From a virus: 64,000 bases of DNA. The notes beneath the pieces are model-generated. The model made no database searches. It was not told the origin of the DNA and saw only the letters and a program-made list of their open reading frames with translations. Shown piece by piece: positions 22,976 through 64,000 of this stretch; the stretch's first letter is position 1; each line of letters begins with the position of its first letter. The DNA lies in the IMG/VR virus record IMGVR_UViG_3300006028_000003, positions 1 to 64,000 of that record, one strand, 5' to 3'. Position numbers and translations under genes: made by a program.

Positions 22976-24459
22976 AGCCCCGCCGCGAGCATCTGTTGCA
23001 TCAAGATCCCTGCAAAGCGGTACTGCCCGCTCTTCGCGGGGTGGAGCCCATCGCTCTCGAAGAAGTTGGTGTTCGTCGGGATGTTGCCGGCAGCGCTTCC
23101 AAGCATCGCATCGGCCCCCGCATCGACGAGGTTGACCCTCACGTTAGCGGTTCCCATCCCCGGCAAGGCTGCGCGGATCCCAGCGTTGATCGTCTGGCGG
23201 TCGGTCTCGTTCGCGGGGCTGAACCCGTGAGCGAAGGTGATGGTAGCGCAGTTGACTTGGTGGGGGTGGCTTCCAACCGGCACCGAATTTAGCGCGCTTA
23301 CTCTCGCTGAGACAATGGCCAGATACTGAGAAAGGATATTGGCTGCGGTGTCGGTCCCGAGGCTGTTGATGCCCCCCTCGATGTTGACGATGTTGACAAC
23401 CCCCGCAAGATAATAGGGGTCAATCATCGTTCCTTGGGTCGTGATGTCGGGGAGATTTCCCCCACCTACTAGGCGGCTTCCAGAGACTGAGATGTTGAAG
23501 GGGAGCCCAAACCGGCCCCCGAGCGCGATCCCAGCCGCCCCCGCGTAAGCCCAAGGGGTGTTGAGGTGGAACGCGACGTTCCCCTGAAGATTGGCGCCGC
23601 CCGCGATGCTGTCGCCAATCTGGAAGACCTGATACTTTACCGTTTCATTTAGATTGGTCAGATTCCAATTCAAACGGAGGTAGGCATCGAGCTGGCCCCT
23701 TTGGGTTAGACTCAATGAATCCCAGATGCCGAAGAAGCCGATGCTTCCGGTGAGGGGGTTTGAGGCCGTATGGCCTACCCCCAGAGTTCCGCTAGTGGTG
23801 ATCGCGCCAGCCCCCGGAGCAGTTCCGGAATTGCTTACTGATTGAAGAACCCCGTTGACGGTAATCTTCGTCACCAACCCATCGTTTTCGACGATGACAT
23901 ACTGAGTCTGGTTATTGCCGGCCCAGAACGAGGGAGAGGCGGTATCGGCGTTTTCGGTATTGCCGGCCCTTCTAGTTCGGGCCCCCCAGCCGTTAGAGCT
24001 AGTCAATATAACCCCATCGGCCGCAGTGATGTTTGTGCTGACTTCCGCGATGGTCATGCTCTGACTATTCGAGGCCCCCCGCTGATTGGAGTCGGCTCTG
24101 AATAGGCAAACCATCACATAGGGAACCTGGAAAACCAACGCGGTAAAATTCAACCAAGTGGGGGTGCTGAAAAGGGGGATGCCTGGGCCTCCGGTTACAA
24201 TCGCCGGCTTCCCCCCCAACCCGATGGTGTCGTAGAACGGTCGGTTGATCGCTGCCGCCTGAGTCGCATCGGCCCCGTTCCCGCTCTGATCTTGCCAGGC
24301 GTCAACTGCCGTCCCGTCGGCCGCGGGGCTTCCACCAAACCGGATGGAGCTTGCAACGGAGGCATCCAAAACAACGCGGCCCCCTGCAGGTCGAATCGGG
24401 CTAAAGACCGGGGGAGCCACCGGCGGCGGCACGAAGAAGTTGGTGTTGACGGCAGGCAT
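22972..24459 (-). CDS. LamG-like domain plus SGNH/GDSL hydrolase
   Basis: A 495-aa protein. Residues about 28-265 resemble a LamG/concanavalin-type carbohydrate-binding jelly roll, ending IGFFGIWDSLSLTQRGQLDAYL. Residues 275-495 are an SGNH hydrolase: GDSIAGGA (S284 nucleophile), a GGINSLGTD block and DGLHPAKSG (D470, H473). The likely role is deacylation of a host surface glycan during attachment, as in phage esterases. It lies between the surface paralogs and a collagen-like protein, supporting a virion location. Confidence 0.85.
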   Translation of the reverse strand: MPAVNTNFFVPPPVAPPVFSPIRPAGGRVVLDASVASSIRFGGSPAADGTAVDAWQDQSGNGADATQAAAINRPFYDTIGLGGKPAIVTGGPGIPLFSTPTWLNFTALVFQVPYVMVCLFRADSNQRGASNSQSMTIAEVSTNITAADGVILTSSNGWGARTRRAGNTENADTASPSFWAGNNQTQYVIVENDGLVTKITVNGVLQSVSNSGTAPGAGAITTSGTLGVGHTASNPLTGSIGFFGIWDSLSLTQRGQLDAYLRLNWNLTNLNETVKYQVFQIGDSIAGGANLQGNVAFHLNTPWAYAGAAGIALGGRFGLPFNISVSGSRLVGGGNLPDITTQGTMIDPYYLAGVVNIVNIEGGINSLGTDTAANILSQYLAIVSARVSALNSVPVGSHPHQVNCATITFAHGFSPANETDRQTINAGIRAALPGMGTANVRVNLVDAGADAMLGSAAGNIPTNTNFFESDGLHPAKSGQYRFAGILMQQMLAAGL

Positions 24460-42969: not shown

Positions 42970-43172
42970 GACGGTAAAACTCCTCCTCGTAGCCAGGCGA
43001 CGACAATCGCGCCCCTCAACATTTCGACGTGGCCCCCGCCGCGGCATTCAAAGAGAAAGCTCTTCCAAGCCTCTTCCTCGGTGAGGCCGGAGCCAACGAA
43101 GCTCCCTCGGCGTCGGATTGAGAAGTCGCCGGAGGAGAGGGGCTTGGGGGCTTTGATGGGGTTGGGGTTCAT
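42966..43172 (-). CDS. Hypothetical protein, 68 aa
   Basis: Opens MNPNPIKAPKPLSSGDFSIR and is basic, with a helical FLFECRGGGHVEMLRGAIVV segment in the second half. No identifiable domain. Both ends overlap neighbours by 4 nt. Confidence 0.55.
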   Translation of the reverse strand: MNPNPIKAPKPLSSGDFSIRRRGSFVGSGLTEEEAWKSFLFECRGGGHVEMLRGAIVVAWLRGGVLPS

Positions 43173-44513: not shown

Positions 44514-44842
44514 CAGAGTCCAATCCCCCTAAGCGTATCCCTCCGCGGCATCTCTTCCTCTTCCTCTTCCCGATCCGAAGCCGCCAAGAACTTCTGGTCC
44601 CCGAGCAATGCCGCTAGGGCCTTCTCCGCACGGGCGGCCAATTCCGGCCCGCCTCGTTGGACCAATCGGCCGAGGGCCCCAACGGCGACGCTCCAATCGT
44701 TGGGAGGGCATTCCTCCACCTGTTTGAGATCTAGGATCTCATACTTCGTTCGGAGGTCGGAAACTTGGGCCTCGGTCCGAGGGAGCTGTAGATTGACCAG
44801 GCCGATGCCGGGGGCGTTGATGGTAACGTGGAACTTTTTCAT
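44513..44842 (-). CDS. Hypothetical protein, 109 aa
   Basis: Start at ATG 44842 (ATGA overlap). The N-terminal part is beta-rich (KKFHVTINAPGIGLVNLQL) and the middle is helical. The end has a Glu-rich run (DREEEEEEMP). Possibly a small adaptor with an acidic tail. No family recognised. Confidence 0.6.
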   Translation of the reverse strand: MKKFHVTINAPGIGLVNLQLPRTEAQVSDLRTKYEILDLKQVEECPPNDWSVAVGALGRLVQRGGPELAARAEKALAALLGDQKFLAASDREEEEEEMPRRDTLRGIGL

Positions 44843-45174
44843 AGAGAAACCTTGGGGCGTTGGATGTTCTGGGCCTGCCAATAGGACTTTGGGAAGACGA
44901 CGGGGGCCCCCAGCACGACACTGGTGACGATCCAGTCATGATCGTTTTCTTGGATGAGATTAGCGACGTGAACCGGCCAATCTTGGCCCTTCGGTGTGAG
45001 CGCAATCGTCGCCGGGCCTTGCTTAGGCTCTCGCCCCACCCGCGCAACCCATGCCTTGATCGTTGAGGCGGTAACCCCAAACCGTTGCGCAATGTCGGAA
45101 AGCTCCTTCTTCTGATCGACTCGAAGCGAGTAGGCCTCGCGCATACGGTGGGTGGCCTTGCCGATGGGTTTCAT
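44839..45174 (-). CDS. Helix-turn-helix protein, 111 aa
   Basis: Residues about 20-45 (KKELSDIAQRFGVTASTIKAW) read as a classic helix-turn-helix, like transposase or phage regulator N-terminal domains. The C-terminal half (LIQENDHDWIVTSVVLG) is beta-like and may be a dimerisation or ligand domain. It probably regulates the nearby leftward unit. Target unknown. Confidence 0.65.
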   Translation of the reverse strand: MKPIGKATHRMREAYSLRVDQKKELSDIAQRFGVTASTIKAWVARVGREPKQGPATIALTPKGQDWPVHVANLIQENDHDWIVTSVVLGAPVVFPKSYWQAQNIQRPKVSL

Positions 45175-46475: not shown

Positions 46476-46694
46476 TTAGTCTGTAGAGTACTGCTCCGAC
46501 ACCATAGCAATCTGCCGCCTGCCAGCCGACGTAAGACCGATTCTCACCCAGCCGTTGCCGATCGGCGTCCGATAGAGCCAGCCAGCGGTAAGGCAAGACT
46601 CGATGTCGTCGTCCAAGCGCTGCCCCTCAAGCCGCTCGATCGGCCATTCATACGAGAGCGTGAGCGTATCCCAGCGCGGATCGAATTCTGCCAT
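46476..46694 (-). CDS. Hypothetical protein, 72 aa, downstream of repeat element E
   Basis: Start at ATG 46694 with GGGAGACGACG upstream; element E lies 38 nt further up. The chain (MAEFDPRWDTLTLSYEW...) ends with a winged-helix-like strand order (WVRIGLTSAGRRQIAM). It may be a small transcription or adaptor protein. Function unknown. Confidence 0.6.
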   Translation of the reverse strand: MAEFDPRWDTLTLSYEWPIERLEGQRLDDDIESCLTAGWLYRTPIGNGWVRIGLTSAGRRQIAMVSEQYSTD

Positions 46695-46731
46695 CGTCGT
46701 CTCCCTTGTTTGGCTTCCGCCTTCGATGCCT

Positions 46732-46763
46732 CGTTTGACGGAGGCATCGACGGCGATATTCAA
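46732..46763 (-). promoter_or_regulatory. Repeat element E (TTGAAT...CGTCAAAC), promoter- or operator-like
   Basis: On the minus strand it reads TTGAAT, 19 bases, TCAAAC; the last CG before TCAAAC is conserved. Its TTGA supplies the TGA stop of the preceding gene (46760-46762). GTTTGAC lies in the loop of a perfect 10-bp hairpin (46723-46732 with 46741-46750). One of five copies in the window, upstream of the gene at 46694. Confidence 0.6.
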
Positions 46764-47359
46764 ACAACGGGGGGCATACCCGAAAGTTTTCGCATGAGGT
46801 TTTTCGCCGTATCGAAGGGACCACTGTTCAGGGCCGCGTCGAGGTCCCCTCGTCCGTACTCGGCAGCCGTCGAGCCAAGCCTATTGACTGGTCGGGCGAG
46901 ACGTTCCGCGAGTAGGGCCGCGTCCTTCATGCAGGTTTCGGCGTAGCGCCGCGCATCGGCTCGAACGCGTGAGGGGTAGTTATCGCCGCCGAACGAATTG
47001 AGCGGCTCGACGGCTCCGTAAGAGACGCAAGCCTCGACGATGGCGAGCATGTGGCCCTCGGAGTCTTTCGCGGCAATGAGGTCGCCCGAGTCACTCACGA
47101 TGCCTTCAACCGTCATCCGCGACCCGACGCACGCGAGGGCTGACTTGATCCGATCGATCGGCAAGGTCGAGAGATTGACCCGCTTGACCTCACACACATA
47201 TTGGGCTTGCCTGTCCGCCTTGCAGTCCTCTTCGCCGCAAGCATCCCACATGTTCGTGAAGTCAAGCACGTACCAAGAGCCGTCCTTGGCGCGCCGTGCC
47301 CACTTGCCCCCGTAGTCGCCCCAATTGACGTCTGAGCCGATGTCCGTCCAACCGCGCAT
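46760..47359 (-). CDS. Hypothetical protein, 199 aa, downstream of repeat element D
   Basis: ATG 47359, with AAAGGCGG upstream and element D 28 nt further up. The chain reads MRGWTDIGSDVNWGDYGGKW and contains CGEEDC near residue 41 and later a Ser/Gly-rich middle and a helical end (AAALLAERLARPVNRL-like). It does not match a family I know. Its stop lies in element E. The only sizeable gene in the element-controlled set. Confidence 0.6.
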   Translation of the reverse strand: MRGWTDIGSDVNWGDYGGKWARRAKDGSWYVLDFTNMWDACGEEDCKADRQAQYVCEVKRVNLSTLPIDRIKSALACVGSRMTVEGIVSDSGDLIAAKDSEGHMLAIVEACVSYGAVEPLNSFGGDNYPSRVRADARRYAETCMKDAALLAERLARPVNRLGSTAAEYGRGDLDAALNSGPFDTAKNLMRKLSGMPPVV

Positions 47360-47387
47360 GATGATCCGCCTTTCTTGCTTGAAGTCT

Positions 47388-47420
47388 CTGTTTGACGAGC
47401 CGCCTCGCCCGATTATTCAA
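47388..47420 (-). promoter_or_regulatory. Repeat element D (TTGAAT...CGTCAAACAG)
   Basis: Minus-strand copy: TTGAAT, 19 bases, TCAAACAG, located 28 nt upstream of the ATG at 47359. Its TTGA contributes the TGA stop of the 25-aa gene (47417-47419). Same orientation relative to its gene as the other four copies. Confidence 0.65.
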
Positions 47421-47494
47421 CGTCGCCCGATCGCCAGCGTCGCCGGAACGATGGCAAGCGCGAAGGCGAGGAGCGGGACCCACATGAGAATCAT
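47417..47494 (-). CDS. Possible 25-aa membrane peptide
   Basis: ATG 47494 overlaps the stop of the preceding gene and the frame ends inside element D. The product is a short hydrophobic helix (MILMWVPLLAFALAIVPA). It could be a holin-like or regulatory peptide, or coincidental. Confidence 0.4.
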   Translation of the reverse strand: MILMWVPLLAFALAIVPATLAIGRR

Positions 47495-47730
47495 GCGTCT
47501 ACCGCTTGCGCTACTAGCGCCCGAGCCGCGTCATGGTCGAAGCCGAAGGCACGTGCCTCGCGTTCCGCGACGTTCACCCACCCACTCATCGCCTCGACGG
47601 CCGCGTACATGCCGCGCCCGTAGGCGCTAGCGTCGTAGTGTTCGTGGTGGGAGATTGCCTCCCAGGTCATGCCGAACCGCCAAAGTTGAATGGCGAAGGC
47701 GAATCCCGCCTCAAAGTTGTCGGGGGTCAT
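47491..47730 (-). CDS. Hypothetical protein, 79 aa
   Basis: Start at ATG 47730 (ATGA overlap). Opens MTPDNFEAGFAFAIQLWRF and continues with His/Glu-rich helices (SHHEHYDASAYGRG) and an Ala-rich C-terminus. Function unknown. Second gene of the leftward arm of the element array. Confidence 0.6.
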   Translation of the reverse strand: MTPDNFEAGFAFAIQLWRFGMTWEAISHHEHYDASAYGRGMYAAVEAMSGWVNVAEREARAFGFDHDAARALVAQAVDA

Positions 47731-47957
47731 GCGCCCCCCGCGGCAAGAAACGCGGCAACGGCCGCTGAGGCCTGCGCCAACGTCGCGTAACTGCCGTTGG
47801 CCGTCGGGTGCTCGATGCGGCTCGTGGCGCCCCCCGCGACAAGAGGGCGCCCGATTGAGAGGCCTCCCCCACGAACCCACATGATGTTGAGGCTAGTTCC
47901 AGGGACCGCGAAAACGACCGCGGCAGGGTTTCGGTAGACTATCTTGGGCTTGGCCAT
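47727..47957 (-). CDS. Hypothetical protein, 76 aa, downstream of repeat element C
   Basis: Start at ATG 47957 (MAKPKIVYRNPAAVVFAV) with AAGAAAGAGAGGCGG before it. The chain is beta-rich (SLNIMWVRGGGLSIGRPLV), then helical at the end with an Ala-rich tail. Element C lies 22 nt upstream. First gene of the leftward arm. Confidence 0.6.
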   Translation of the reverse strand: MAKPKIVYRNPAAVVFAVPGTSLNIMWVRGGGLSIGRPLVAGGATSRIEHPTANGSYATLAQASAAVAAFLAAGGA

Positions 47958-47978
47958 CGTCCGCCTCTCTTTCTTGCC

Positions 47979-48011
47979 CTGTTTGACGCCTCCCCCACCC
48001 GATTCATTCAA
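47979..48011 (-). promoter_or_regulatory. Repeat element C (TTGAATGAATCG...CGTCAAACAG)
   Basis: Minus strand: TTGAATGAATCG, then GTGGGGGAGG and CGTCAAACAGG. Located 22 nt upstream of the ATG at 47957. It faces element A across 52 bp, so C and A are the two inner copies of a mirrored array. Confidence 0.7.
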
Positions 48012-48063
48012 CCCCCCCGATTCTTTTTTCTGGCCCCTACATGGGGGCCGGGAGAAAAAAGTG

Positions 48064-48095
48064 TTGAATGAATCGACGGCCCCCACGTCAAACAG
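48064..48095 (+). promoter_or_regulatory. Repeat element A (TTGAATGAATCG...CGTCAAACAG)
   Basis: Plus strand: TTGAAT, 18 bases ending in CG, then TCAAACAG, 18 nt before the ATG at 48113. A run of A's (GAGAAAAAAG) just upstream could serve as an UP element. The motif could be a -35/-10-like promoter for an alternative sigma factor, or an operator. Confidence 0.7.
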
Positions 48096-48112
48096 GCACA
48101 AGGGAGACGATC

Positions 48113-48457
48113 ATGACGACTTTTTCGAGCTCGACTCAAGTTCAGGCCGATGGCGCGCGCGTCGAAACGGGCGTTGTCCACCATGAAGGGAAGGCCTTCG
48201 CCGCCCTCGGTTCCGTCGTCGACGTCGCGTCGGGCCTCGTCAACGCCTACGTCTCTGAGAATGGGGGCGTCTACACCCTGACGACGTGGGAGGGTACCCC
48301 GATCGCCCCTCTCATCTTGACGGGCAAGTGGCAACAGTGGGGTCTCGGAGGCGTCCGAAACACGATCTGGGCTTGGCGCGCGACCGTCGACGGGGTCAGG
48401 TTCAGCGGTCGGAACTCCGGCCCGGGCATGTTCATCCGGATGCGCGCCAAGGTTTGA
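48113..48457 (+). CDS. Hypothetical protein, 114 aa, downstream of repeat element A
   Basis: Start at ATG 48113 with AAGGGAGA upstream. The chain is beta-rich throughout (GVVHHEGKAFAALG, NAYVSENGGVYTLTTWEG) with Gly/Thr/Trp-rich strands, similar to small single-domain beta proteins. Its stop lies within element B. Function unknown. First gene of the rightward arm. Confidence 0.65.
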   Translation: MTTFSSSTQVQADGARVETGVVHHEGKAFAALGSVVDVASGLVNAYVSENGGVYTLTTWEGTPIAPLILTGKWQQWGLGGVRNTIWAWRATVDGVRFSGRNSGPGMFIRMRAKV

Positions 48458-48485
48458 ATGAATCGCGCCCCCGCGCGTCAAACAG
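48454..48485 (+). promoter_or_regulatory. Repeat element B (TTGAATGAATCG...CGTCAAACAG)
   Basis: Plus strand: TTGAAT, 18 bases ending CG, TCAAACAG, followed by AGGGAAGGGAGAG and the ATG at 48506. Its TTGA overlaps the TGA stop of the preceding gene (48455-48457), as in elements D and E. Confidence 0.7.
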
Positions 48486-48505
48486 AGGGAAGGGAGAGAA
48501 CGACG

Positions 48506-48874
48506 ATGGCATCGAAACGAGGCTTGCAGGTGCGGCCCCCCGTGGGGTCGAAGGTGCGACTGACCGGCTACTTTCTCAAGTCGACGGGTCAGATCAAAGG
48601 GGAGGAAGGGGCCAAGCGCTGGACTGTCGTTGACTGCGGATACGACTGCCTTTGCGGTCTCGGAGGCCACGTCGGAGTGAACGAGCCGACCGACACGTCA
48701 ACGGGGTACGATGACATCGCCCCCGAAGTGCGCGCGAAGATGGTGCGCCACATCGCGCTCGGTAACTTGGAACTCGTCGGTGCGCCGCCTAAGGCAGCCG
48801 ATCAGGGTGACGCCATGGGCCCAATCAAGTTGCCGCTCGGACATCCGGACGATCCGCCGAGGGCCCGTCGATGA
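48506..48874 (+). CDS. Hypothetical protein, 122 aa, downstream of repeat element B
   Basis: Start at ATG 48506. The chain (MASKRGLQVRPPVGSKVRLT...) carries a beta-barrel-like front with CGYDCLCG near residues 44-51, a helical middle (APEVRAKMVRHIALG) and a Pro-rich end. Not recognised. It overlaps the next small frame by 4 nt (ATGA). Confidence 0.6.
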   Translation: MASKRGLQVRPPVGSKVRLTGYFLKSTGQIKGEEGAKRWTVVDCGYDCLCGLGGHVGVNEPTDTSTGYDDIAPEVRAKMVRHIALGNLELVGAPPKAADQGDAMGPIKLPLGHPDDPPRARR

Positions 48875-49029: not shown

Positions 49030-49253
49030 GCCAAGACGACGTCACGGAAGCCCTCCGAGATTGGGATGCCCGTTTCTGGGAAGCGACCGAGACGCGTTGC
49101 TATGACCGCATGTCGCCTTTGCAGGCGCGGGAGCTACGAGAACAGCGAATCACCTACGGCACTGGCCCCACTGGGCTAACCGGCGCGACCTGTAGCACCT
49201 GCGGAGCTTTGCTAGGGCCGACCCCCAAGAGCCCTCCAAAACCGCCCCGCTAA
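49026..49253 (+). CDS. Zinc-binding small protein, 75 aa
   Basis: Start at ATG 49026 (ATGA overlap with the interrupted gene). The chain is acidic at the start (MSQDDVTEALRDWDARF) and has CSTCGALL near its C-terminus, a single CxxC that may pair with an upstream Cys (ETRCYD). It precedes the integrase control region. Function unknown. Confidence 0.55.
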   Translation: MSQDDVTEALRDWDARFWEATETRCYDRMSPLQARELREQRITYGTGPTGLTGATCSTCGALLGPTPKSPPKPPR

Positions 49254-49302
49254 CCCCCCTTCTCCCCACCGCGCAACGCCGCAAAGCCCTTGCAATGAGC
49301 TA

Positions 49303-49415
49303 AGGCCTCCCGAGGGGCCTACCCCTTCTAAAGCGAGGCCTGGCCTGAGGGCCTAGACCCCAGACCCGAGGCCTTTGACGGCCCCCGACCGAGGCCTTAG
49401 GTTTCGGGCCTAGGC
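49303..49415. repeat. Clustered AGGCCT/GGGCCT sequence repeats upstream of the integrase
   Basis: AGGCCT occurs at 49303-49308, 49336-49341, 49369-49374 and 49392-49397, with further GGGCCT and TAGGCC copies between them. The first three are spaced exactly 33 bp, i.e. about three helical turns. This gene-free stretch lies directly upstream of the integrase, so it could hold arm-type integrase or excisionase sites or an attachment site. The core site itself is not identified. Confidence 0.4.
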
Positions 49416-49434
49416 CGAACTATGGGCGGTGCAC

Positions 49435-50652
49435 ATGGTTGATAGCAACGAAAAACCCAATGATATCAAAGACTTAGCCTATGATCCGCCCGCTGCTGCG
49501 GTAGAGTCCGCCTCTGAGCTAGCCAAGGTACGAGCGCTGATGCGGATAGCGTCACCTAAGCTAGGCGAGAGCTTCGCGGCCTGGCGTGGGGCGAAGGCCG
49601 ATGGCCTTGCGACGGTCGATAAGTCGTCTCCCGCGGCCCTTGGCGGAGCGCTCTCGTTACCGCGCGCTGCACTAGTAGACGCTTTGGCCCCGGAGCTAGA
49701 CCCCGTACGCAAGTTCCTTGCTCTCAGCGAGAGCCCGCGGACCGCGCAGACCATGGCTGAGGGGCTCGCGCGCATCGGCGCCCTCTACGGCATCGCGCCG
49801 CAAGACGTCGCTTGGCACCAGCTTCGGCGCCTGCACACGACGGACATGCGACTTCGATTGCAGCGCGCCTATAGCCCCCGGACGGTCAACGTAACCCTTT
49901 GCGCGCTTCGGGGGGTGCTCCGGTGCGCCTGGGAGGACGAGCTCATGACCGGGGAGGAGTACACGCGCGCCATCGGGGTCAAGAACATGAAGGTGCGCCG
50001 GCTACCGAAGGGGCGATGGCTCGGGGAGGACACCAAGCGTGTGCTCAACCACTGCCGGGCCCTAGGGCCAACCGCGAAGGATTGGCCGGGGAGCGCCTTC
50101 GGTTCGTTCTTGCTCGTCTCGTGCGCGCTCATGTTCGCAGCCGGGCTCAGGGCCTCCGAGGTCGCGTGCTTGACGGTCAACTCGTACGATCGCCGTACGA
50201 AGGAGCTTCGTTTTATCGGCAAGGGCGGTGACGAAGCAATCGTACCCCTCGGCGACGAGGTGATCGGCGCGTTGGAGGAATGGCTTAGTGTCCGCGCGGA
50301 GCTCGACCTAGGGGAGGGCATGCCCCTCATCGTTCGCGTCCGCAAAGACGGGAGCGTCAACCCCCGGACGGCGCTCTTGAACCGGCGGAAGCTAGAGCAC
50401 CTCTGTAAGCAGATAGCACGCAAGGCCCTCGGCGAGAAATTCTCCCCCCACGATCTACGCCGGACCTTTTGCACTGACATCCTCGATCGCGGAACGGATC
50501 TCGCGACAGCGCAGCGGCTTATGCGGCACAAGAGCCCGGCGACAACCGCGCTCTATGATCGGAGACCAATCGAAGCCGATGCGGCGGTCCGGCGCAAGAT
50601 GAATCTTTTCGAGCGCAAGCCGTCTGATGGAGAGGAGAAGGATAAAGCATGA
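49435..50652 (+). CDS. Tyrosine recombinase (phage integrase)
   Basis: An about 405-aa integrase (GTG 49429 is an alternative start). An N-terminal arm-binding and core-binding part (about 80-190) precedes the catalytic domain, where the full catalytic set can be seen: R241 (GLRASEV), K265 (GKGGDE), H341xxR344 (HDLRRT), H367 and Y376 (ATTALYD), in numbering from the GTG start. This catalyses site-specific strand exchange between att sites. Located beside the repeat cluster and the accessory array, it argues that the element can integrate or be mobilised. The N-terminal about 75 residues are extra and acidic. Confidence 0.93.
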   Translation: MVDSNEKPNDIKDLAYDPPAAAVESASELAKVRALMRIASPKLGESFAAWRGAKADGLATVDKSSPAALGGALSLPRAALVDALAPELDPVRKFLALSESPRTAQTMAEGLARIGALYGIAPQDVAWHQLRRLHTTDMRLRLQRAYSPRTVNVTLCALRGVLRCAWEDELMTGEEYTRAIGVKNMKVRRLPKGRWLGEDTKRVLNHCRALGPTAKDWPGSAFGSFLLVSCALMFAAGLRASEVACLTVNSYDRRTKELRFIGKGGDEAIVPLGDEVIGALEEWLSVRAELDLGEGMPLIVRVRKDGSVNPRTALLNRRKLEHLCKQIARKALGEKFSPHDLRRTFCTDILDRGTDLATAQRLMRHKSPATTALYDRRPIEADAAVRRKMNLFERKPSDGEEKDKA

Positions 50653-50924
50653 AGCCGTTCGACCCCGAACATACTTTTCATCTCAATACGATGGCGGCCT
50701 TCGAACAGTACAAGGTCAACAGCAAGGACGCCCCTGAACCCGCTTTCGCGCATCGAGAGCGGATGCTTGTAGCGGCGCTCACTCGAATCGCTGATGAGCG
50801 CCTATCAGCTACTGAGATGCGGCGTACCGCCGTCGAGGGCTTAGCGCTCTGGGTACACCGCATGTCGCCGGAGATGCGAGAGCGCCTCGGGTTCCCGCGC
50901 GCCGATGATTCGGACGGAACATGA
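50649..50924 (+). CDS. Hypothetical protein, 91 aa
   Basis: Overlaps the integrase stop by 4 nt and ends in an ATGA overlap. Starts MKPFDPEHTFHLNTMAAFEQ and has helical middle and end segments (ALTRIADERLSATEMRRTAV). It may be an integrase-linked regulator or excisionase-like protein, but no helix-turn-helix is clear. Confidence 0.55.
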   Translation: MKPFDPEHTFHLNTMAAFEQYKVNSKDAPEPAFAHRERMLVAALTRIADERLSATEMRRTAVEGLALWVHRMSPEMRERLGFPRADDSDGT

Positions 50925-56221: not shown

Positions 56222-56815
56222 TTAGACAACGACGACTTGGCGCATGAGCTTACCGCCCCCGGCCCCGACCGTCAGAGTCCCGTCGCCCGTAGCGGCTGCT
56301 TTGACCGTCAGTACGCGAGATCCGGCTGCGGGCCCCACTTCAACAGCCCATGCAGCTGAGACTGCGGTAGCGCCGCCTGCATAACCCTGCTCTATCGGGC
56401 CGCCGATCACCGAAACACCATCGATCTGAATGTCGAGCTCCAACGCACCACCGGCTGAGCTTCCGGCGACGCCAGCAGCGACGTAGCCGGTGATGATGAT
56501 GCTCTGCCCGGCCACGATCGTTACCGTCGCGGTGGCAACAGTTGCAAGCGATCCCGTCAGAACAACGGGGGCGCCGTTACTGGACGATCCAGTCGAGACC
56601 AGGTTTGCGGGGCCGGTGGGACCAGTAGCGCCGGTTCCCCCAGGGCCAGTCGCTCCCGTTGCTCCGGTAGGCCCCGTCGCGCCGGAACCAGCGGGGCCCG
56701 TTGGACCAGTCGCACCAGAAGGACCCCCTGGCCCAGTCGCTCCGGCGCCACCCGGAGGGGTTCCGACGGATGTTGCGATTGTGCCGACGTAGGTGCTGTA
56801 GGGGATAGGGGGCAT
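56222..56815 (-). CDS. Collagen-like protein 3 with C-terminal beta domain
   Basis: A 197-aa protein. Residues about 20-70 contain about 16 Gly-X-Y triplets ([17 protein letters not shown] style) after a short N-terminus (MPPIPYSTYVGTIATSVG). The C-terminal about 120 residues form a beta-sandwich-like domain (VVLTGSLATVATATVTIVAG, LELDIQIDGVSVIGG). The domain resembles the end of the collagen-like protein at 32803. A trimeric spike or fibre at the virion surface is inferred. Confidence 0.85.
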   Translation of the reverse strand: MPPIPYSTYVGTIATSVGTPPGGAGATGPGGPSGATGPTGPAGSGATGPTGATGATGPGGTGATGPTGPANLVSTGSSSNGAPVVLTGSLATVATATVTIVAGQSIIITGYVAAGVAGSSAGGALELDIQIDGVSVIGGPIEQGYAGGATAVSAAWAVEVGPAAGSRVLTVKAAATGDGTLTVGAGGGKLMRQVVVV

Positions 56816-56837
56816 GGTTTTTCCGTCGGTCCGGGTT

Positions 56838-57305
56838 TTACAGATCCGCGACTACAATCGTCGCGTCGCCGGTGAGAATTTGCGCGGTGTGACCACCGCC
56901 AATTGACGCCCTGACCCCGTAGGTATGGGAGGCGCCGGGGGCCGGAGTGTCGATGAAGGTGGCGGCCCCGAATGCTTTGACGCTCCCGGTTGCGGTTCCT
57001 GCGCTCACCTCGGAGGTGCCGCCGACTGGGGTGGTTCCATCGCGGAAGATCTGAACGGTTACCGCGTCACCGTCGGCTAGGGTTCCGGGGGCGACGCTGA
57101 TCGTTCCAACGACCAACACCTTGCCGGTTCCGGAAATAAACGCACTCGAGTCCCACTCCACCGTTGCGCCGGGCCCGATGGGAGCGGCGTTGGTCTGGCT
57201 CAGGTTGTTACCGGAGGGGCTTCCCGACGCGCCGCGCCCGAGGGCACCGAGGATCGAGGTGTAGGCCTTGTTAGCCAGAGCGGTAACGGATTTCATGGGG
57301 ATCAT
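56838..57305 (-). CDS. Putative virion beta-sandwich protein, 155 aa
   Basis: ATG 57305 overlaps the preceding stop. MIPMKSVTALANKAYTSILG is a helical start; the rest is beta-rich (KVLVVGTISVAPGTLADGD, VTVQIFRDGTTPVGG), with strand patterns like those in the protein at 33658 and in the collagen-like C-terminal domains. A spike-base or penton-like role is a hypothesis. No metal or catalytic motif. Confidence 0.55.
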   Translation of the reverse strand: MIPMKSVTALANKAYTSILGALGRGASGSPSGNNLSQTNAAPIGPGATVEWDSSAFISGTGKVLVVGTISVAPGTLADGDAVTVQIFRDGTTPVGGTSEVSAGTATGSVKAFGAATFIDTPAPGASHTYGVRASIGGGHTAQILTGDATIVVADL

Positions 57306-57799
57306 CCTCGGCGGCGGTTTTTCTTCCAGTAAAGGTAGCCGAAAACACCGGCGGTCGCGACTCCAGCTCCGATGAGAGCAAACGGAATCATGTTCGACGG
57401 TGGGGGGTTCGTAGGAACAGTCGGAGTTGGGGTCGGCGGTGTCGGGGTTGGTGCCGGAGGCACAACGGGGGGGACAACGGGGGGAGCCGGGGGAATGACC
57501 GGAACAACTGGCGGAGCGACACTAGGGGTGAAGCAATCCGGGGGCGCGGTCCCCTGCCCGAGGGTGCTCATCACGAATTGCAGCGCCCCGCGGGTTAGCG
57601 GCCCATACTTCCCGTCTTCAACGAGCGGGTTGTTTGGGTTAGCCAGGTTCCATTGCACCTGGAAGTCATGGCATTCCGGAAAGGGTTGCTGGGTGCAAGG
57701 ATTGCCCGAAAGCCAGCCGATCAGATCAGCGGCGGTCTGCGCGAGGGGCGTTGGCGGAAGATCCGGTTGCCCAAAAGCCAGTCGAGGCATCCAACTCAT
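57302..57799 (-). CDS. Peptidoglycan-binding-domain-like protein with C-terminal membrane anchor, 165 aa
   Basis: The N-terminal about 80 residues read like a PG_binding_1 unit: DFQVQWNLANPNNPL, DGKYGPLTRGALQF. A Pro-rich linker (PVIPPAPPVVPPVVPP) is followed by one membrane helix (MIPFALIGAGVATAGVFGYLY, about 137-157) and a basic tail (WKKNRRRG). The next gene has the same layout, so this is a tandem duplication. A virion membrane protein that holds peptidoglycan would suit cell-wall contact during entry. Confidence 0.75.
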   Translation of the reverse strand: MSWMPRLAFGQPDLPPTPLAQTAADLIGWLSGNPCTQQPFPECHDFQVQWNLANPNNPLVEDGKYGPLTRGALQFVMSTLGQGTAPPDCFTPSVAPPVVPVIPPAPPVVPPVVPPAPTPTPPTPTPTVPTNPPPSNMIPFALIGAGVATAGVFGYLYWKKNRRRG

Positions 57800-58341
57800 C
57801 GATGATGCTTCTTCCGCTTCCAGGCCCAGTAAATCAAGCCGGCTCCGAGAACCGCGGCACCGCCGATGATGACGGGGGTTGGAATCCCAGTGGCTCCGGC
57901 GGGGGTAATGGCCGTCGGAGTCGTTGGAGCCGGCGCGGGGGGCTCGTCAGGTTGCGGCGTCGTAGGCACCACGTCGCTGAAAACATTCTGGGGCGCCAAC
58001 TGCGAAGGCCCGATGACGTTGTTCAACGCAACCTGAGTGTTGGGCCCATATTGGCCGTCAACAGTAAGGCTCCCAGGCAACCCGGAGCTATTGTAGGCGC
58101 TCTGGAAAGCAGAGACTTGCGGAACCGAATCTCGCGAAGGGGCATTGGTGGCAAAGAAGGCCATCAGATCCGCCGCCGCCGATTGCGCCGCGGGGAGGTC
58201 ACCAAAGCCGGATCCACCCGCAAGGCCTTGGCTATAGGTGATCCCGTTAGCAGCAACCCACCAAGTTTTTTCGACTAGCATCGGAGTTGCTCCGAGGCCG
58301 AAGGGGCCACTTCCGAGGGGAGCTTTGATCCAAGTTTTCAT
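57796..58341 (-). CDS. Peptidoglycan-binding-domain-like protein with C-terminal membrane anchor, 181 aa
   Basis: Starts at ATG 58341 and overlaps the next gene by 4 nt. The middle domain has VSAFQSAYNSSGLPGSLTVD and GQYGPNTQVALN, again the PG_binding_1 pattern. It is followed by a Pro/Thr linker and a membrane helix (PVIIGGAAVLGAGLIYWAW) with a basic tail (KRKKHHR). The N-terminal about 60 residues (GLGATPMLVEKTWWVAANG) are unique. Paralogous to the protein at 57302. Confidence 0.75.
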   Translation of the reverse strand: MKTWIKAPLGSGPFGLGATPMLVEKTWWVAANGITYSQGLAGGSGFGDLPAAQSAAADLMAFFATNAPSRDSVPQVSAFQSAYNSSGLPGSLTVDGQYGPNTQVALNNVIGPSQLAPQNVFSDVVPTTPQPDEPPAPAPTTPTAITPAGATGIPTPVIIGGAAVLGAGLIYWAWKRKKHHR

Positions 58342-59148
58342 TTACATCTCCACCACGAGGGAAACACCGACCCGCCAATATCGAGGGCGCCCGCCTTCGT
58401 CGCTGCCGAAGTTGCCGATGAAGTTCTCCTCGAGAGGAAGGCCAAGCGCTGGAGTCAACGCGGGGTAGGCTCCGGAGCTTTGCTTCACGCTGATGAAGAA
58501 CGCGATGGTGTCGGGGCCTTCAACGGTGATGTCGAGGCTACGCCAGGCGCCGTGCGTTCGCTGTTGGGTCCGGAGGTCGAAGAAGGTGGAGTGGTTCCCT
58601 TGGCTAAGGGGGGTTCCCCAGGGGCGGCCCAACATCGGCGGTTGGTAGGAAGTGAGCTGGGTGTAGATCCGGTTCCCTGCGGCGATAGTGTATTTGTTGT
58701 AGAGGAGGCAAGGGCCATCAGCCCAAAGCCGCTTGAAGCTATTCAAGTCAAGCGGGGTCGGATCGGTCAGGGGATACCCGGAGTTATTCGGGGGCCCGAG
58801 TCGATGCATGTGCCAAGAAATGTTGCCGTCGGGCAACCGGAAGTTGGGGGAGATGATCTCCTGCTCGACGAATCGAGTCGGAGAAGTTGCAACCCCAAGG
58901 GAGGCAAATTGCCGGTAGCCAACGATGCGAGCAACCCCGCCTTCGCCAAGGCTGAAGGAGGCCCCCAAGAAAAGATACCGGGAGGCCTTATCCGAGGTCG
59001 CAAGGGTTGGGACCCTCAAGCCGAAGGAGGAGGCCCCGCCGAAGGGGTCTCCGCCTTGAGCTTGCAAGAACTCATCGAGGCCGGTGGTCTCAAACTCCGA
59101 GACGCGCCGGCTCCCTCTGAGTAGTTCGGGGTTGAGGGGCTGCACCAT
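58342..59148 (-). CDS. Putative virion protein, 268 aa
   Basis: A single-domain-looking protein with beta-rich segments (SRYLFLGASFSLGEGG, SWHMHRLG, SLDITVEGPDTIAFFI, and RYWRVGVSLVVEM at the end). No membrane segment or enzyme motif. Its end is next to the gene for the second peptidoglycan-binding protein. It lies in a three-gene row of capsid-like proteins (58342, 59156, 59942). A minor capsid or vertex role is inferred from position. Confidence 0.55.
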   Translation of the reverse strand: MVQPLNPELLRGSRRVSEFETTGLDEFLQAQGGDPFGGASSFGLRVPTLATSDKASRYLFLGASFSLGEGGVARIVGYRQFASLGVATSPTRFVEQEIISPNFRLPDGNISWHMHRLGPPNNSGYPLTDPTPLDLNSFKRLWADGPCLLYNKYTIAAGNRIYTQLTSYQPPMLGRPWGTPLSQGNHSTFFDLRTQQRTHGAWRSLDITVEGPDTIAFFISVKQSSGAYPALTPALGLPLEENFIGNFGSDEGGRPRYWRVGVSLVVEM

Positions 59149-59155
59149 CGCGGTC

Positions 59156-59908
59156 CTACAATGAGAGGACCATCTTGATGTAGGAGTCGCTCATCTCGAT
59201 CCCGAAGTCATTCTGCAACGAGTCGATGGCCTCGCGGGTCGTCATTGTAACAAAAGATTGGGTTACTGGCACCCAGCCGCGGTAGGTGCAGACGACTTCG
59301 ATCGGCGCGTAGGGGAGAAGGATCTTCGCGTTGAAGTCCATCCACAACTGCTGCTGATAGGTGAGCACCCAACCGCCAGGCCAATGGGAGCTCCCGGTGA
59401 CCATATCGGCCAACGTACTCAACGGGGTGTATTTGTTGGCGACGTCGTAGCGAGGCGCGCCTTGGATGCTCAGCTTTGCTTCGATCCCCGACTGGAAGCC
59501 GAAGAAGAAGTCGCTGAACGCTTGGAATTGGTTTTGGTTCGCGGTCGAAGATTCGTTCTGAACCCTCACCACCAACGCATCGATGAGGGTGTCCTGAACG
59601 ATCTTGACGTCGGAGCCGACCCCGGTAATGACCGAAGTTGCGGTATCGGGGAAGATTGCCCGGACGTTGATGATGTAAGGCGCGAGGGGAACTCCCTTCG
59701 CCTTGGCGAGAGCGAGCCTCGGAGAACCCGCCGCCAGCATCGCGTAGACGCCGGCAGCGAGGGGTCCGAGGACATTGTCGGTGCAGTCGCAGCTCCCCAT
59801 ACCGAAGGCTTTCACCTTCGGCTTTGGGGGGGCTCCGAGACCCGCTGTTTTCGAGAGCAGCTTTTCGAGTTGCTCGTTGGAGATCCAGGCTCCTGCTTGC
59901 TGAGTCAT
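59156..59908 (-). CDS. Putative virion protein, 250 aa
   Basis: A 250-aa protein with an N-terminal helical part (NEQLEKLLSKTAGLG), a CDCTDNVLGPLAAG block and a beta-rich second half with RGWVPVTQSFVTM. I do not recognise a family. It lies directly before the 451-aa capsid candidate in translation order (downstream of it on the minus strand) and shares its dense virion context. Could be a second capsid protein or a scaffold. Confidence 0.5.
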   Translation of the reverse strand: MTQQAGAWISNEQLEKLLSKTAGLGAPPKPKVKAFGMGSCDCTDNVLGPLAAGVYAMLAAGSPRLALAKAKGVPLAPYIINVRAIFPDTATSVITGVGSDVKIVQDTLIDALVVRVQNESSTANQNQFQAFSDFFFGFQSGIEAKLSIQGAPRYDVANKYTPLSTLADMVTGSSHWPGGWVLTYQQQLWMDFNAKILLPYAPIEVVCTYRGWVPVTQSFVTMTTREAIDSLQNDFGIEMSDSYIKMVLSL

Positions 59909-59941
59909 CGAGGGTTACCTCCTTTCAGGGGGTAGCCCCGA

Positions 59942-61297
59942 TCACTGCGCTGCGAACCGCATCCCGACGCACTCGAACACGGCCGCGCGGATGTCGGCGC
60001 TCGCACTGAGCTGGTTGTACCAATCCTGGGAGACTTCGAAGCCGCGGATCGGGAGGGTCAACTTGAGGTCGCCAGACTGGTAGACAACGCGCTCGGCGTC
60101 GACTTGCTGCGCGACGTCGGTTCCGTCGAGGGTGCGCTCCAACATGACGGGAGAAGCGCCGCCTGCGGTCGGCTCCGCGATCCAGTTGCTGTCCGACGTG
60201 AAGATCGGGGGGATGCTCCCGCCGAAGCCCTGCGTGATGCTGAGGAACTGGCGCATCTGGTCGCCTTCCACGGAGTCACACTCCTGAAGGAAGATCCCGA
60301 TCGGAACGCCGCGGGGGATCACGTAGGGGACGCAGAGCTTGCGCATCTCCTTGTTGCCGTTGAGCATCGACCGGAGATCCATGCCGCCGTAGGTGGCGCC
60401 GACGATCTCGAAGTCACGCGTCGGGGTGAACCGCCCGACGTTGACACCGCCGGTGGCCGCAGAGCCGAGCCGAAGGAAGTCGACGCGGCTGAAGTTGAGG
60501 GCCGTGCCGAGCTCATCGTAGCGCTGGTTCAGGTTGCGCTCGAAGGTGACGGTATCGACCTCAGAGCTGGAAGCAGAGCCTTCCTGCGCCGACGGAGGCA
60601 TGTACGCCGTGTGACGGAGCTGATCGTCGCAGATGTTGGTGTGCTGACCGATCTTCCACCGGTAGTTATAGGCGCGGCTCATGTGCCAGCAGACGTAGTT
60701 CGCCCACCACCCGTGACGCCACACCGCGGGGAGAGCGACGCCCGTGGGGCTTGCGCCTGCGAAAGCGGCGCCGAGAGCTCCGTTGAAGCGGTCGTTCTGG
60801 GTGAAGACGTCAGGAGAAGGCGGCTTCGCAACAGCGGCCGTCGGATGCGTAAACGCATTGCCCCGGGCGGTGAAGCAGAGGGGTTCCGGCTCCATGATGA
60901 AGCCGACATAGCAGGCGACGAAGTTCGTCTGGGTCTGCCCGGTCTGCGCCATCGTGGTTTCCACGAAGTCGATTCCGAAGGGCGACTTGCCGGCGCCGAA
61001 GAGGTCGATCTCCGCGCCGAAGTTACTCCGGACGCTTTCGTCGACCTGAGGGCCGGTCATCGTCCATCGGACTTCCTCGATCACGTCCATGTTCCAGTAG
61101 GGGGTGTTGCTTGACTCCTGCATCAGGTCGATGATGCTTCCGAACCCAGACTTGAGGGTCGCGGCGTCCTTGACCTTACTGAGGTCGAGCGCTCGGCCCT
61201 GACCAACCTGGTATCGATCGCTGGGCCGCTCCCTCTTGCGGATTTCCGCCGCCCGAGGGGCGACATTGCGAGACTGAACGAGACCTCTGTAATCCAT
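59942..61297 (-). CDS. Putative major capsid protein, 451 aa
   Basis: A 451-aa protein beginning MDYRGLVQSRNVAPRAAE, with GGAG upstream. It is rich in beta-prone segments (VEEVRWTMTG, DFVETTMAQTGQTQTNFVACY) and in long loops. There is no membrane segment or enzyme motif. Size, lack of catalytic motifs and position among virion genes make it the best major-capsid candidate. Both HK97 and jelly-roll folds are possible; I cannot tell from sequence alone. Structure prediction would decide. Confidence 0.5.
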   Translation of the reverse strand: MDYRGLVQSRNVAPRAAEIRKRERPSDRYQVGQGRALDLSKVKDAATLKSGFGSIIDLMQESSNTPYWNMDVIEEVRWTMTGPQVDESVRSNFGAEIDLFGAGKSPFGIDFVETTMAQTGQTQTNFVACYVGFIMEPEPLCFTARGNAFTHPTAAVAKPPSPDVFTQNDRFNGALGAAFAGASPTGVALPAVWRHGWWANYVCWHMSRAYNYRWKIGQHTNICDDQLRHTAYMPPSAQEGSASSSEVDTVTFERNLNQRYDELGTALNFSRVDFLRLGSAATGGVNVGRFTPTRDFEIVGATYGGMDLRSMLNGNKEMRKLCVPYVIPRGVPIGIFLQECDSVEGDQMRQFLSITQGFGGSIPPIFTSDSNWIAEPTAGGASPVMLERTLDGTDVAQQVDAERVVYQSGDLKLTLPIRGFEVSQDWYNQLSASADIRAAVFECVGMRFAAQ

Positions 61298-61396
61298 GAT
61301 GCGATTCTCCGTGGTTAGGTGGCCCTCTTAGGCGCCCACCAGTTTTGAACCGCACTCAGCTTTCGTTTCCCCGGAAGCTGGAATCTTGCTCAAGAT

Positions 61397-62959
61397 CTAT
61401 TCGTCGTTGAAGCCCCAGTTGAAGCGGTTTCGGCCGCCATTCTTGGGGACTCCGGTAAGGTTCTGCATGTTGAGGCTCGGCGGAGGAGCCGCGGGGGGTG
61501 GCGGGGGAGGAGGCGGCGGGGCCGTCATCTGGGGGGTCGGCGCCTGGGTTTGGGCGTTTTGGGAGGTTTCCCGGGGCATGCTCGGGTAACCCAGGTTTTT
61601 TTGCTCGCAGGGAGCGCAATCACCAAGGGGTTTCCCAAGCTGGGGCCTTCCGAGGCCTGCTGAGGGGAGGGAAGCCAAATCGGCGGCTTGCTGGTTTCCG
61701 TTGTTCGCCTTGAGAACCGCGGCCCTCATCTCACCGTCGTAGAGGCGCTGGCCGGTTCCCATGCCCTTGGTGAGCGTCGCGATTGCGTCGATGGCGCCCT
61801 TACCAACGACTCGAACTCCCCAGCCGAACGCTGCGAATTGCATCGAAGCGCGGACCATCGGGGCCTTGACGAAACTCGCGGTGACGAACATCACCGCGGG
61901 AACGCCGATGCCGGCGGCCCATCGGCCAAGATCCATCGGAGCGCAAATCGCGGTCGGATTGAAGAGCCCGGAATAACTCCCGGAAGTCGGAGGGTTGTCG
62001 GCGTAGAGCTCGTTTCCGTTCGCATCCTTGGTGCCCTTATCGGTCAGGGCGTGGGTCGCGATGAAGCGGTCGAGAGCATCGCCGCCGAGGAAGCCGAGGG
62101 TGCCGAAGATCGAGGCGACGAAGAGCTCACCGCCAGTCAAGCCGTATTGGCTTGGGTTGCGCCTCGATCGGCCACGGCGTCGACCACGGCGGCGCTCGGC
62201 CGCGTAGTCTTCACGTCGACTCGACCGGCTTCGGAAGCCCTGCGAAGCCATACGGCCTCGACGGGCCGCGTGGGCCTTTTTGATGTTGCGGCGGGCGGCG
62301 GCGATTTGCTTTCGGCTCGCCTTGCGCTTTCCACCACCGCTCTTGCGGCGACCGCGCGACTTCCGCTTCGGGGCTTTGCCCGCCCGGCGTCGACGTGCCC
62401 AACCCTTTTTGGCTGCCTTCGCGTGCCGACGAGGGGCTCCACGCCATTCGCTTGCGGAGCTCTTTCGGCTCTTCCGACGCCGTTTCGCGGCCTTGCGCTT
62501 CGCCTTGCTGCGCTTGCGCTTCGGGGTCGGGTTGTGCTTTGCGCGCCGCTTACCCTTCGACCGGCGCTTTTTGCGCGGGGTCTCGGAGGCCCGATGTTTC
62601 GATCGACGCGCGGCCTTTGCGGCGCGGATCATCTTCCGCGTAGCGCGCTGTTGCGCAGCGGTGCGAGCCTTCTTGCGACCCTTTTTCTTGGCCATCGGTG
62701 CTTTCCTCGAAGATTTTGCGCCTGACCTGCCTTTCCCCGTTGAAGTTGTGCTCTCTCGAAGTGAAGCGCGGCGGCGATGGTATGTCAAGCCCCTCCCCTT
62801 CTTGTGCGCCTTCTTCTTAGTCTTACGGCGGTAGCCAAAATCTAGCCGCCGGCCTTTTTTGCTCTCCTTGCTACCGGTGATCCGGCCCTTGGCTGTCGCG
62901 GCAAATTCGGGCCCGGATTCACGGTTGGAGTCCAGGCGAGCGAGGTAATCTATCGGCAT
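61397..62959 (-). CDS. Very basic histone-like N-terminal region fused to membrane segments and Pro-rich tail
   Basis: A 520-aa protein with a strong AGGAGG 5 nt before ATG 62959. Residues about 30-270 contain well over 100 Lys/Arg/Ser/Ala residues in histone-like blocks (RKKRRSKGKRRAK, KRKRSKAKRKAAKRRRKS), ending RRGRSRRNPS. Membrane-type segments follow at about 276-293 (GELFVASIFGTLGFLGG) and about 346-365, and a Pro-rich tail before the C-terminus. A second in-frame ATG at 62695 (MAKKKGRKKART) has its own GAGGAA, so two isoforms are possible. Probably tethers DNA to a membrane. Confidence 0.8.
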   Translation of the reverse strand: MPIDYLARLDSNRESGPEFAATAKGRITGSKESKKGRRLDFGYRRKTKKKAHKKGRGLTYHRRRASLRESTTSTGKGRSGAKSSRKAPMAKKKGRKKARTAAQQRATRKMIRAAKAARRSKHRASETPRKKRRSKGKRRAKHNPTPKRKRSKAKRKAAKRRRKSRKSSASEWRGAPRRHAKAAKKGWARRRRAGKAPKRKSRGRRKSGGGKRKASRKQIAAARRNIKKAHAARRGRMASQGFRSRSSRREDYAAERRRGRRRGRSRRNPSQYGLTGGELFVASIFGTLGFLGGDALDRFIATHALTDKGTKDANGNELYADNPPTSGSYSGLFNPTAICAPMDLGRWAAGIGVPAVMFVTASFVKAPMVRASMQFAAFGWGVRVVGKGAIDAIATLTKGMGTGQRLYDGEMRAAVLKANNGNQQAADLASLPSAGLGRPQLGKPLGDCAPCEQKNLGYPSMPRETSQNAQTQAPTPQMTAPPPPPPPPPAAPPPSLNMQNLTGVPKNGGRNRFNWGFNDE

Positions 62960-62968
62960 CGAAGCCTC

Positions 62969-64000
62969 CTAGGGGCGCACAAAACCACGGTCGTCCAGTT
63001 GAGCACCGCGGGGGAGCTCCAACCGACAAAACTTTCCGCGTTTGTAGAGGCGGACCTTCTTGTGGCCCCCCAAGAGTGACATCAAGCCCTTGTTGAATTC
63101 ATGGCGAAAATAGCCCGCGCGTCGGCCACTTCGGGTGTAGAAGATGTCCGCCACCTCCCCCAAGTAAGACCAATCCCTCAACGCCTTCGGCGGGGTGTTG
63201 ACCCTTCCGAGGTGACCGTCGCTCCGACCAAAGTAAGCCTTCGCATCGCCTTCGATATCAACCCGGCTTTCTCGAAGCTTAGCCGGCCCAATCAAAACAC
63301 TCTTTGAAGGCCACCATCGGCCGCTCGGGTCATGCATCATCGCTCCGGAGCAATGAATCTCGCGGCCGTCGGCAAGTTCGAAGGTGACCCCGCGCCCCTT
63401 GGCGATAAGGGCCTTGCTTCCTAGTTTTCTTCCGCCGCCGCCGGTGGGATTTTCCTTGGGCCCCTTGAAGATCATCCAACCCATCACCCCGAGGCCCACC
63501 GCGACGAGGCCCCACAAAGCGGCCGCCGCAACGCTAGTCGGTGTCGACGTAGAAGTAGCTTTGACGGGGGTAGCGGGGGTGATCTGCGGCGCTGACGCAA
63601 CCGGGCCTCTTAGATCTGCTTGAATGAGCTTCGCGAGGTCTTGGGCGGTATGAGCGGTCTGGGGTGAAGCGAGGTGCCAGTCGAGCGCTTGCAGTTGGGT
63701 GAGGACCCCATCGATTTCGGGGGGCCAAGAAGTGACCTGCGCCTTGATCGTCGCAACTTGCGGGATGATGGCTTGGTAGGCCTGGACCGCATTTTCCCAC
63801 TTCTTGGCGACCATGAAGGCGTCGCCGGAGTCGATCGTGACCCCGAGGTTCTGCAAGTCGACCGCGGCGGAGCCGAAGCCTTGCGGTATTCCCCCTAGAG
63901 TCGGACACGCTCGTATGTGCATGAGGCCGTCCGACCCGAGAACGTCATGTCCTACGCCACGTGCACAACGGCCGCAGTATCGAGAGCCATCCTGCCGAAG
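62969..64000 (-). CDS. Membrane protein, partial at the right edge (about 317 aa or more)
   Basis: The frame is open from 64000 to its stop at 62969, so the true N-terminus may lie beyond the window; the internal ATG 63922 is one possible start. Upstream of that ATG the frame reads YCGRCARG, a possible metal site. Downstream are a helical part, a membrane helix (ALWGLVAVGLGVMGWMIFKG), a basic Gly-rich hinge and a beta-rich C-terminal domain (GVTFELADGREIHCSGAMM). Virion membrane or entry role inferred. Confidence 0.55.
   Translation of the reverse strand, partial: LRQDGSRYCGRCARGVGHDVLGSDGLMHIRACPTLGGIPQGFGSAAVDLQNLGVTIDSGDAFMVAKKWENAVQAYQAIIPQVATIKAQVTSWPPEIDGVLTQLQALDWHLASPQTAHTAQDLAKLIQADLRGPVASAPQITPATPVKATSTSTPTSVAAAALWGLVAVGLGVMGWMIFKGPKENPTGGGGRKLGSKALIAKGRGVTFELADGREIHCSGAMMHDPSGRWWPSKSVLIGPAKLRESRVDIEGDAKAYFGRSDGHLGRVNTPPKALRDWSYLGEVADIFYTRSGRRAGYFRHEFNKGLMSLLGGHKKVRLYKRGKFCRLELPRGAQLDDRGFVRP

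Follow-up and report, generated by a model that had tools for sequence, protein, structure and literature searches.

A repeated element resembling ECF sigma factor promoters faces the genes of an integrase-adjacent array in an environmental virus

A divergent array of small genes and its repeated element

The locus described here raises the question of why one short bipartite sequence should recur in front of gene after gene in a viral array of small orphan genes, and whether it is a promoter, a regulator binding site or a recombination site. The source virus record (G000) has 76,031 b, and the window, meaning the whole stretch of DNA that was analysed, is its first 64,000 nt. G000 may be a complete genome, circular or terminally redundant although classed as linear, because an exact 110-bp repeat is common to both of its ends (1-110 and the last 110 bases). 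Gene starts were taken from a simple home-made gene caller. The features on which the argument turns are listed by window coordinates:

44839-45174, minus: small HTH protein, similar to sigma-70 region 4 below the cut-off
46476-46694, minus: small orphan gene of the left arm, 72 aa; no PHROGs, Pfam or PADLOC match
46733-46763, minus: element E1, TTGAAT-N17-CGTCAAAC; lies before gene 46476-46694, and gene 46760-47359 ends at its TGA
46760-47359, minus: orphan gene of the left arm, 199 aa; no family above cut-off
47390-47420, minus: element E2, TTGAAT-N17-CGTCAAACAG; lies before gene 46760-47359, and a 25-aa ORF ends at its TGA
47491-47730, minus: orphan gene, 79 aa, overlapping the end of 47727-47957 by 4 nt and without an element of its own
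47727-47957, minus: orphan gene of the left arm, 76 aa, headed by E3
47981-48011, minus: element E3, TTGAAT-N17-CGTCAAACAG; lies before gene 47727-47957 as the inner leftward copy
48024-48060 (about), no strand: near-perfect palindrome with A6/T6 and GGCCCC arms and a 4-nt loop, z -4.7
48064-48093, plus: element E4, TTGAAT-N16-CGTCAAACAG; lies before gene 48113-48457 as the inner rightward copy
48113-48457, plus: orphan gene of the right arm, 114 aa, headed by E4
48454-48483, plus: element E5, TTGAAT-N16-CGTCAAACAG; lies before gene 48506-48874, and gene 48113-48457 ends at its TGA
48506-48874, plus: orphan gene of the right arm, 122 aa, headed by E5
49435-50652, plus: tyrosine integrase flanking the right arm (PF00589, E 2.5e-25; PHROG integrase, E 4e-31)
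50600-50627, plus: candidate additional core, TGAAT-N16-CGTCTGA, within the integrase gene at its 3' end and 25 nt before gene 50649-50924

A sequence-only reading of the window had described the element as TTGAAT-N18/19-TCAAAC(AG), in five copies found nowhere else in the window. An exact search for TTGAAT-N18/19-TCAAAC bears this out, returning five copies in the whole 76,031-b record, all of them in the array, with some of the earlier coordinates 1-2 bases off. The pattern is exact in all five, and the core can be tightened to TTGAAT-N16/17-CGTCAAAC, but the AG tail follows CGTCAAAC in only four, the copy at 46733 having GA. Nor is the motif frequent by chance: in 100 shuffles of the window the pattern never occurred, no further copy exists in G000 at 13 of 14 matching positions, and copies at 12 of 14 are at noise level (3 found, 2.85 expected). 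The bare core TGAAT-N16/17-CGTCnnA has two extra matches, at 43023 (minus) and 50600 (plus), both intragenic. The latter has a counterpart in the related virus G001, at 2636, which stands 40 nt before the orthologue of gene 50649-50924; it is possibly another promoter, or it may merely reflect codon conservation.

The arrangement of the copies is likewise as first read. All five face a gene start, with 23-42 nt from CGTC to the start codon (own gene calls), and the arms diverge from about 48,037, where the palindrome lies midway between the divergent E3 and E4 and places its A-tract just upstream of the rightward -35 half. In all three copies that have a preceding gene on the same strand (46733, 47390 and 48454), the TGA supplies the stop codon of that gene, which at 47390 is the 25-aa ORF. 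Searches with the array proteins gave no useful homologue in known phages, Pfam, PHROGs or PADLOC; the product of 46760-47359 has short N-terminal similarity only, in some viral contigs, and that of 48113-48457 weakly and partially matches a hypothetical protein from Rhodococcus phage Mbo2.

Several other features of the record were observed in passing. The intergenic stretch 49237-49434, 5' of the integrase, has palindromic CGAGGCC/GGCCT runs that are partly kept in G001 and is a candidate attP. Gene 2589-5219 (minus) encodes a DNA polymerase A with a fused N-terminal uracil-DNA-glycosylase-like domain. A putative virion gene block occupies 56222-64000 of the window and 64001-71854 of the record; its tested products had no structural PHROG match, and the AlphaFold model for gene 59942-61297 in this block reached a pLDDT of 27, there being too few homologues.

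Conservation of the element and divergence of its cargo

Relatives of G000 were reached by routes that did not depend on the motif: G001 and G002 through the conserved protein encoded at 59942-61297 (97% and 75% identical there), and G003 through DNA polymerase. The element occurs once in exact form in G001, at the contig end and 1.3 kb away from the integrase, and G002 and G003 each have a divergent pair, TGAAT-N17-CGTCTTA, adjoining the integrase and lying 25-33 nt before the gene starts, except for 9 nt in the case of the leftward G003 gene. A third match in G002, at 23697, was set aside as it precedes an HNH-like ORF with a probably wrong start. Because the G002/G003 pair reads in this way, the part kept across G000-G003 consists of TGAAT, CGTC and their spacing, and excludes the leading T of TTGAAT and the trailing AAACAG.

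Two more distant viruses carry larger clusters. G008, a 54-kb record reached through motif-scan match L031, has seven copies, all on the same strand; a control pattern had no match, and an integrase adjoins the copies. One of its elements heads the gene of a 570-aa protein (L215:5614-7326) in which DUF3560 occurs with a methyltransferase-like domain, and another heads a UvrD-like helicase. A motif-blind search by integrase alignment gave 79 loci, among them L248, where five copies form a mirrored array next to the integrase. An odd L248 site at 13194 (minus), which does not face a gene start, was excluded. The search of related genomes thus recovers the TGAAT/CGTC core in G001-G003 and also in G008 and L248, and a tyrosine integrase adjoins the element in every virus with a cluster. 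G008 and L248 have only a handful of weakly similar proteins in common with G000; since G000-G003 are of shared ancestry and these two are distant kin, the lineages are not wholly independent.

Broader pattern searches added little. The long pattern TTGAATGAATCG-N9/12-CGTCAAAC had no match in viral contigs and one in bacterial genomes, in Paenibacillus, which was treated as chance; the 14-base pattern gave mostly chance matches in viral contigs (108 of 120 inside called genes), one of which led to G008; and Myxococcus phage Mx8, tried as a guess suggested by lipoprotein style, had one match, which is the chance level.

Across the 22 listed copies of G000-G003, G008 and L248, in which the TGAAT-CGTC gap is 16 or 17 bp by search definition, the consensus is TGAAT-N16/17-CGTCnAAC. 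The third base after CGTC is A in 13 of the 13 copies that were not selected on that letter, and the fourth is C in 10 of these 13. When every 5-mer/4-mer dyad with a gap of 15-18 was surveyed across the upstream regions of 82 sequences, TGAAT/CGTC emerged independently as the strongest one in each of G000, G008 and L248, which lead the survey. An ATG follows every one of the 22 copies, never less than 8 nt from CGTC, with four at exactly 8 nt and one at 9 nt (one ATG among those at 8-9 nt opens nine codons only).

The genes behind the element change. Between G002 and G003 both segments that carry the element are identical, and the first leftward gene diverges directly after the -10 half, save for its first few codons. 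G001 keeps only the last 43 codons of the G000 array gene 48506-48874, although the identity between the two viruses in capsid-region genes reaches 97-99%. Element-headed genes of different lineages have no clear homology to one another. As related viruses keep the element and differ in the genes behind it, the locus behaves as a cargo slot whose genes would bring their own promoter.

Predicted promoter function and its alternatives

The interpretation preferred here, with fairly high confidence, is that each element is a complete ECF (group IV sigma) promoter, with TGAAT as the -35 element, a 16-17 bp spacer and CGTCnAAC as the -10 element, on the ground that its spacing, its orientation and its CGTCnAA half agree with ECF -10 elements from the literature. 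ECF41 promoters read TGTCACA-n16-CGTC with a spacer of 16+/-1 (PMC3426412), so that the viral element is like them in its CGTC and its spacing and differs in its -35; the neisserial sigma-E promoter has a -10 of CGTCTAAH with the start 6 nt downstream (PMC2893595), and shares CGTCnAA with the element but has a 12-13 nt spacer and another -35. TGAAT fits none of the three -35 motifs compared, namely TGTCACA, the GGAACTT of E. coli ECF promoters and GTMAGBWTT. Many ECF -35 elements carry AAC, which TGAAT does not. The viral element differs from ECF promoters in general in belonging to viruses and in repeating gene by gene. Transcription would start about 8-9 nt after CGTC, and the ATGs at 8-9 nt would suit leaderless transcripts. 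The five copies in G000 would drive the two arms of a divergent accessory-gene array beside the integrase, and where a copy lies between genes, the preceding gene often ends at a stop codon within the putative -35.

The sequence-only reading had implied a sigma factor of either ECF or phage type. The ECF part gains from the 16/17-bp spacing, the orientation, the conservation despite differing cargo and the -10 match. The phage-sigma part finds no support: a Pfam search confined to the G000-G003 records, which a very divergent or non-Pfam sigma would escape, detected neither a sigma region 2 nor a region 4 above cut-off. Because none was detected in these four records, the cognate sigma is probably that of the host. 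The cargo would then be expressed when the host sigma is active, for example under envelope stress at infection or in the lysogen, and independently of the lytic programme.

An operator, that is, a site at which a phage repressor or activator would co-regulate the array while the true promoter lies elsewhere, is unlikely. Such repeated sites are common in phages, cluster A mycobacteriophages with their 13-bp stoperators being an example (PMC3203893); those of L5 are likewise many, dispersed, short and asymmetric. A small, weakly sigma-region-4-like HTH protein is encoded close to the array at 44839-45174; no match to the region 4 family was found in G001-G003. The TTGA...TCAA letters also form a loose dyad in G000, but this dyad is not conserved, the right half being CGTCTTA and the left half CTGAAT in G002 and G003. 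The element is asymmetric and always gene-facing, its 16/17-bp spacing and fixed distance to the start codon fit a promoter, and no sigma-70 promoter was seen beside the elements, the single regional match lying inside a gene. An approximate stoperator-like pattern, GGTGGMTGTCAAG, occurs in the window at near chance level and matches none of the five elements.

Some copies are also palindromic, which bears on two further alternatives. Long palindromes of 18-22 pairs spanning the -10 half occur in five copies (E1 at 46733, one in G001, two in G008 and one in L248), with stem sequences that differ among the five; that of E1 is imperfect, with 30-nt arms and CGTCAAAC as its 8-nt loop. The remaining copies (about 17 of 22) have near-random folding energy and no strong palindrome. 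An RNA element was rejected, as four of the five window copies lack structure and there was no meaningful Rfam match.

A recombination or cassette-boundary site, by which the adjacent integrase would swap cargo in the manner of integron attC sites, is quite improbable. The adjoining tyrosine integrase, the cargo that differs between relatives and the five long palindromes would all be expected of it; against it stand the occurrence of both orientations within one array, the many copies that have no strong palindrome, and a conservation that is bipartite with promoter-type spacing. In attC sites the RYYYAAC-type boxes are placed at the outer ends, whereas the RYYYAAC-like letters of the palindromic viral copies fall within the loop or close to it. 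An attC array would have palindromic sites in one orientation, bounded by RYYYAAC ... GTTRRRY; the G000 array has copies on both strands, and most copies are free of a strong palindrome.

A vegetative SigA/sigma-70 promoter with TTGAAT as its -35 and an unusual -10 is very improbable, since the agreement of TTGAAT with four of the six letters of TTGACA, and the putative SigA-like promoters held by the ESAS of cluster K phages (PMC11373665), are outweighed by there being no TATAAT-like hexamer at 16-18 bp and by the letters conserved over lineages being TGAAT and CGTCnnA, not TTGACA and TATAAT.

On the preferred reading of the element as an ECF-type promoter, the left arm of the hairpin copies lies upstream of the expected start, so that only read-through RNA from the preceding gene could form the hairpin. 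A hairpin around the promoter may in this way terminate or process the upstream transcript, and an insulating or terminating role is proposed for it.

Comparison with known phage elements and implications

The closest known systems are the ESAS of cluster K mycobacteriophages and the ECF promoters of phiEco32-like phages, and the element belongs to neither. ESAS recur as oriented intergenic elements, each about 50 bp long and holding a putative promoter, before small non-structural genes of different families; they pair with the 13-bp SAS GGGATAGGAGCCC and have SigA-like hexamers and a 17-bp inverted repeat, and a hairpin that precedes the P91 promoter of Adephagia may be a terminator (PMC3203893, PMC11373665). 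The likeness lies in repeated, oriented putative promoters before scattered small phage genes; the difference is that the halves are ECF-like here, that most copies are without an inverted repeat and that the -35 often holds the upstream stop codon. In place of the 17-bp imperfect inverted repeat of ESAS type, a long palindrome is found in E1 alone among the five copies, and a search for SAS GGGATAGGAGCCC beside start codons gave two 2-mismatch matches (2.75 expected), none at the array. The middle and late promoters of phiEco32-like phages are served by a phage-encoded ECF-family sigma and carry tAATGTATAtA 6-8 nt before the start (PMC4281155). They are similar in being several phage promoters with a conserved motif under an ECF-family sigma, which is predicted for the viruses studied here; the difference is that the sigma is encoded by the phage there and none was detected in G000-G003, and that the motif is another, TAATGTATA being absent from the window at up to 1 mismatch.

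A more speculative proposal, which is given little credence here, is that stop codon, terminator hairpin and promoter are fused into a unit of about 60 bp that doubles as the boundary for cargo exchange, so that an integrase-linked locus would trade small genes between viruses as a promoter-bearing counterpart of integron cassette arrays, run by a host stress sigma. More modestly, the overlapping stop codons and the hairpin copies suggest that single genes could be insulated and driven in a very compact manner. If the promoter reading is true, TGAAT-N16/17-CGTCnAAC beside an integrase would be a simple DNA signature for an accessory-gene slot in a poorly known group of environmental viruses, and with it hypervariable cargo genes, which may act on the host, could be listed. 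It would also mean that these phages wire their accessory genes to what appears to be a host ECF regulon, and not to the vegetative or a phage sigma factor.
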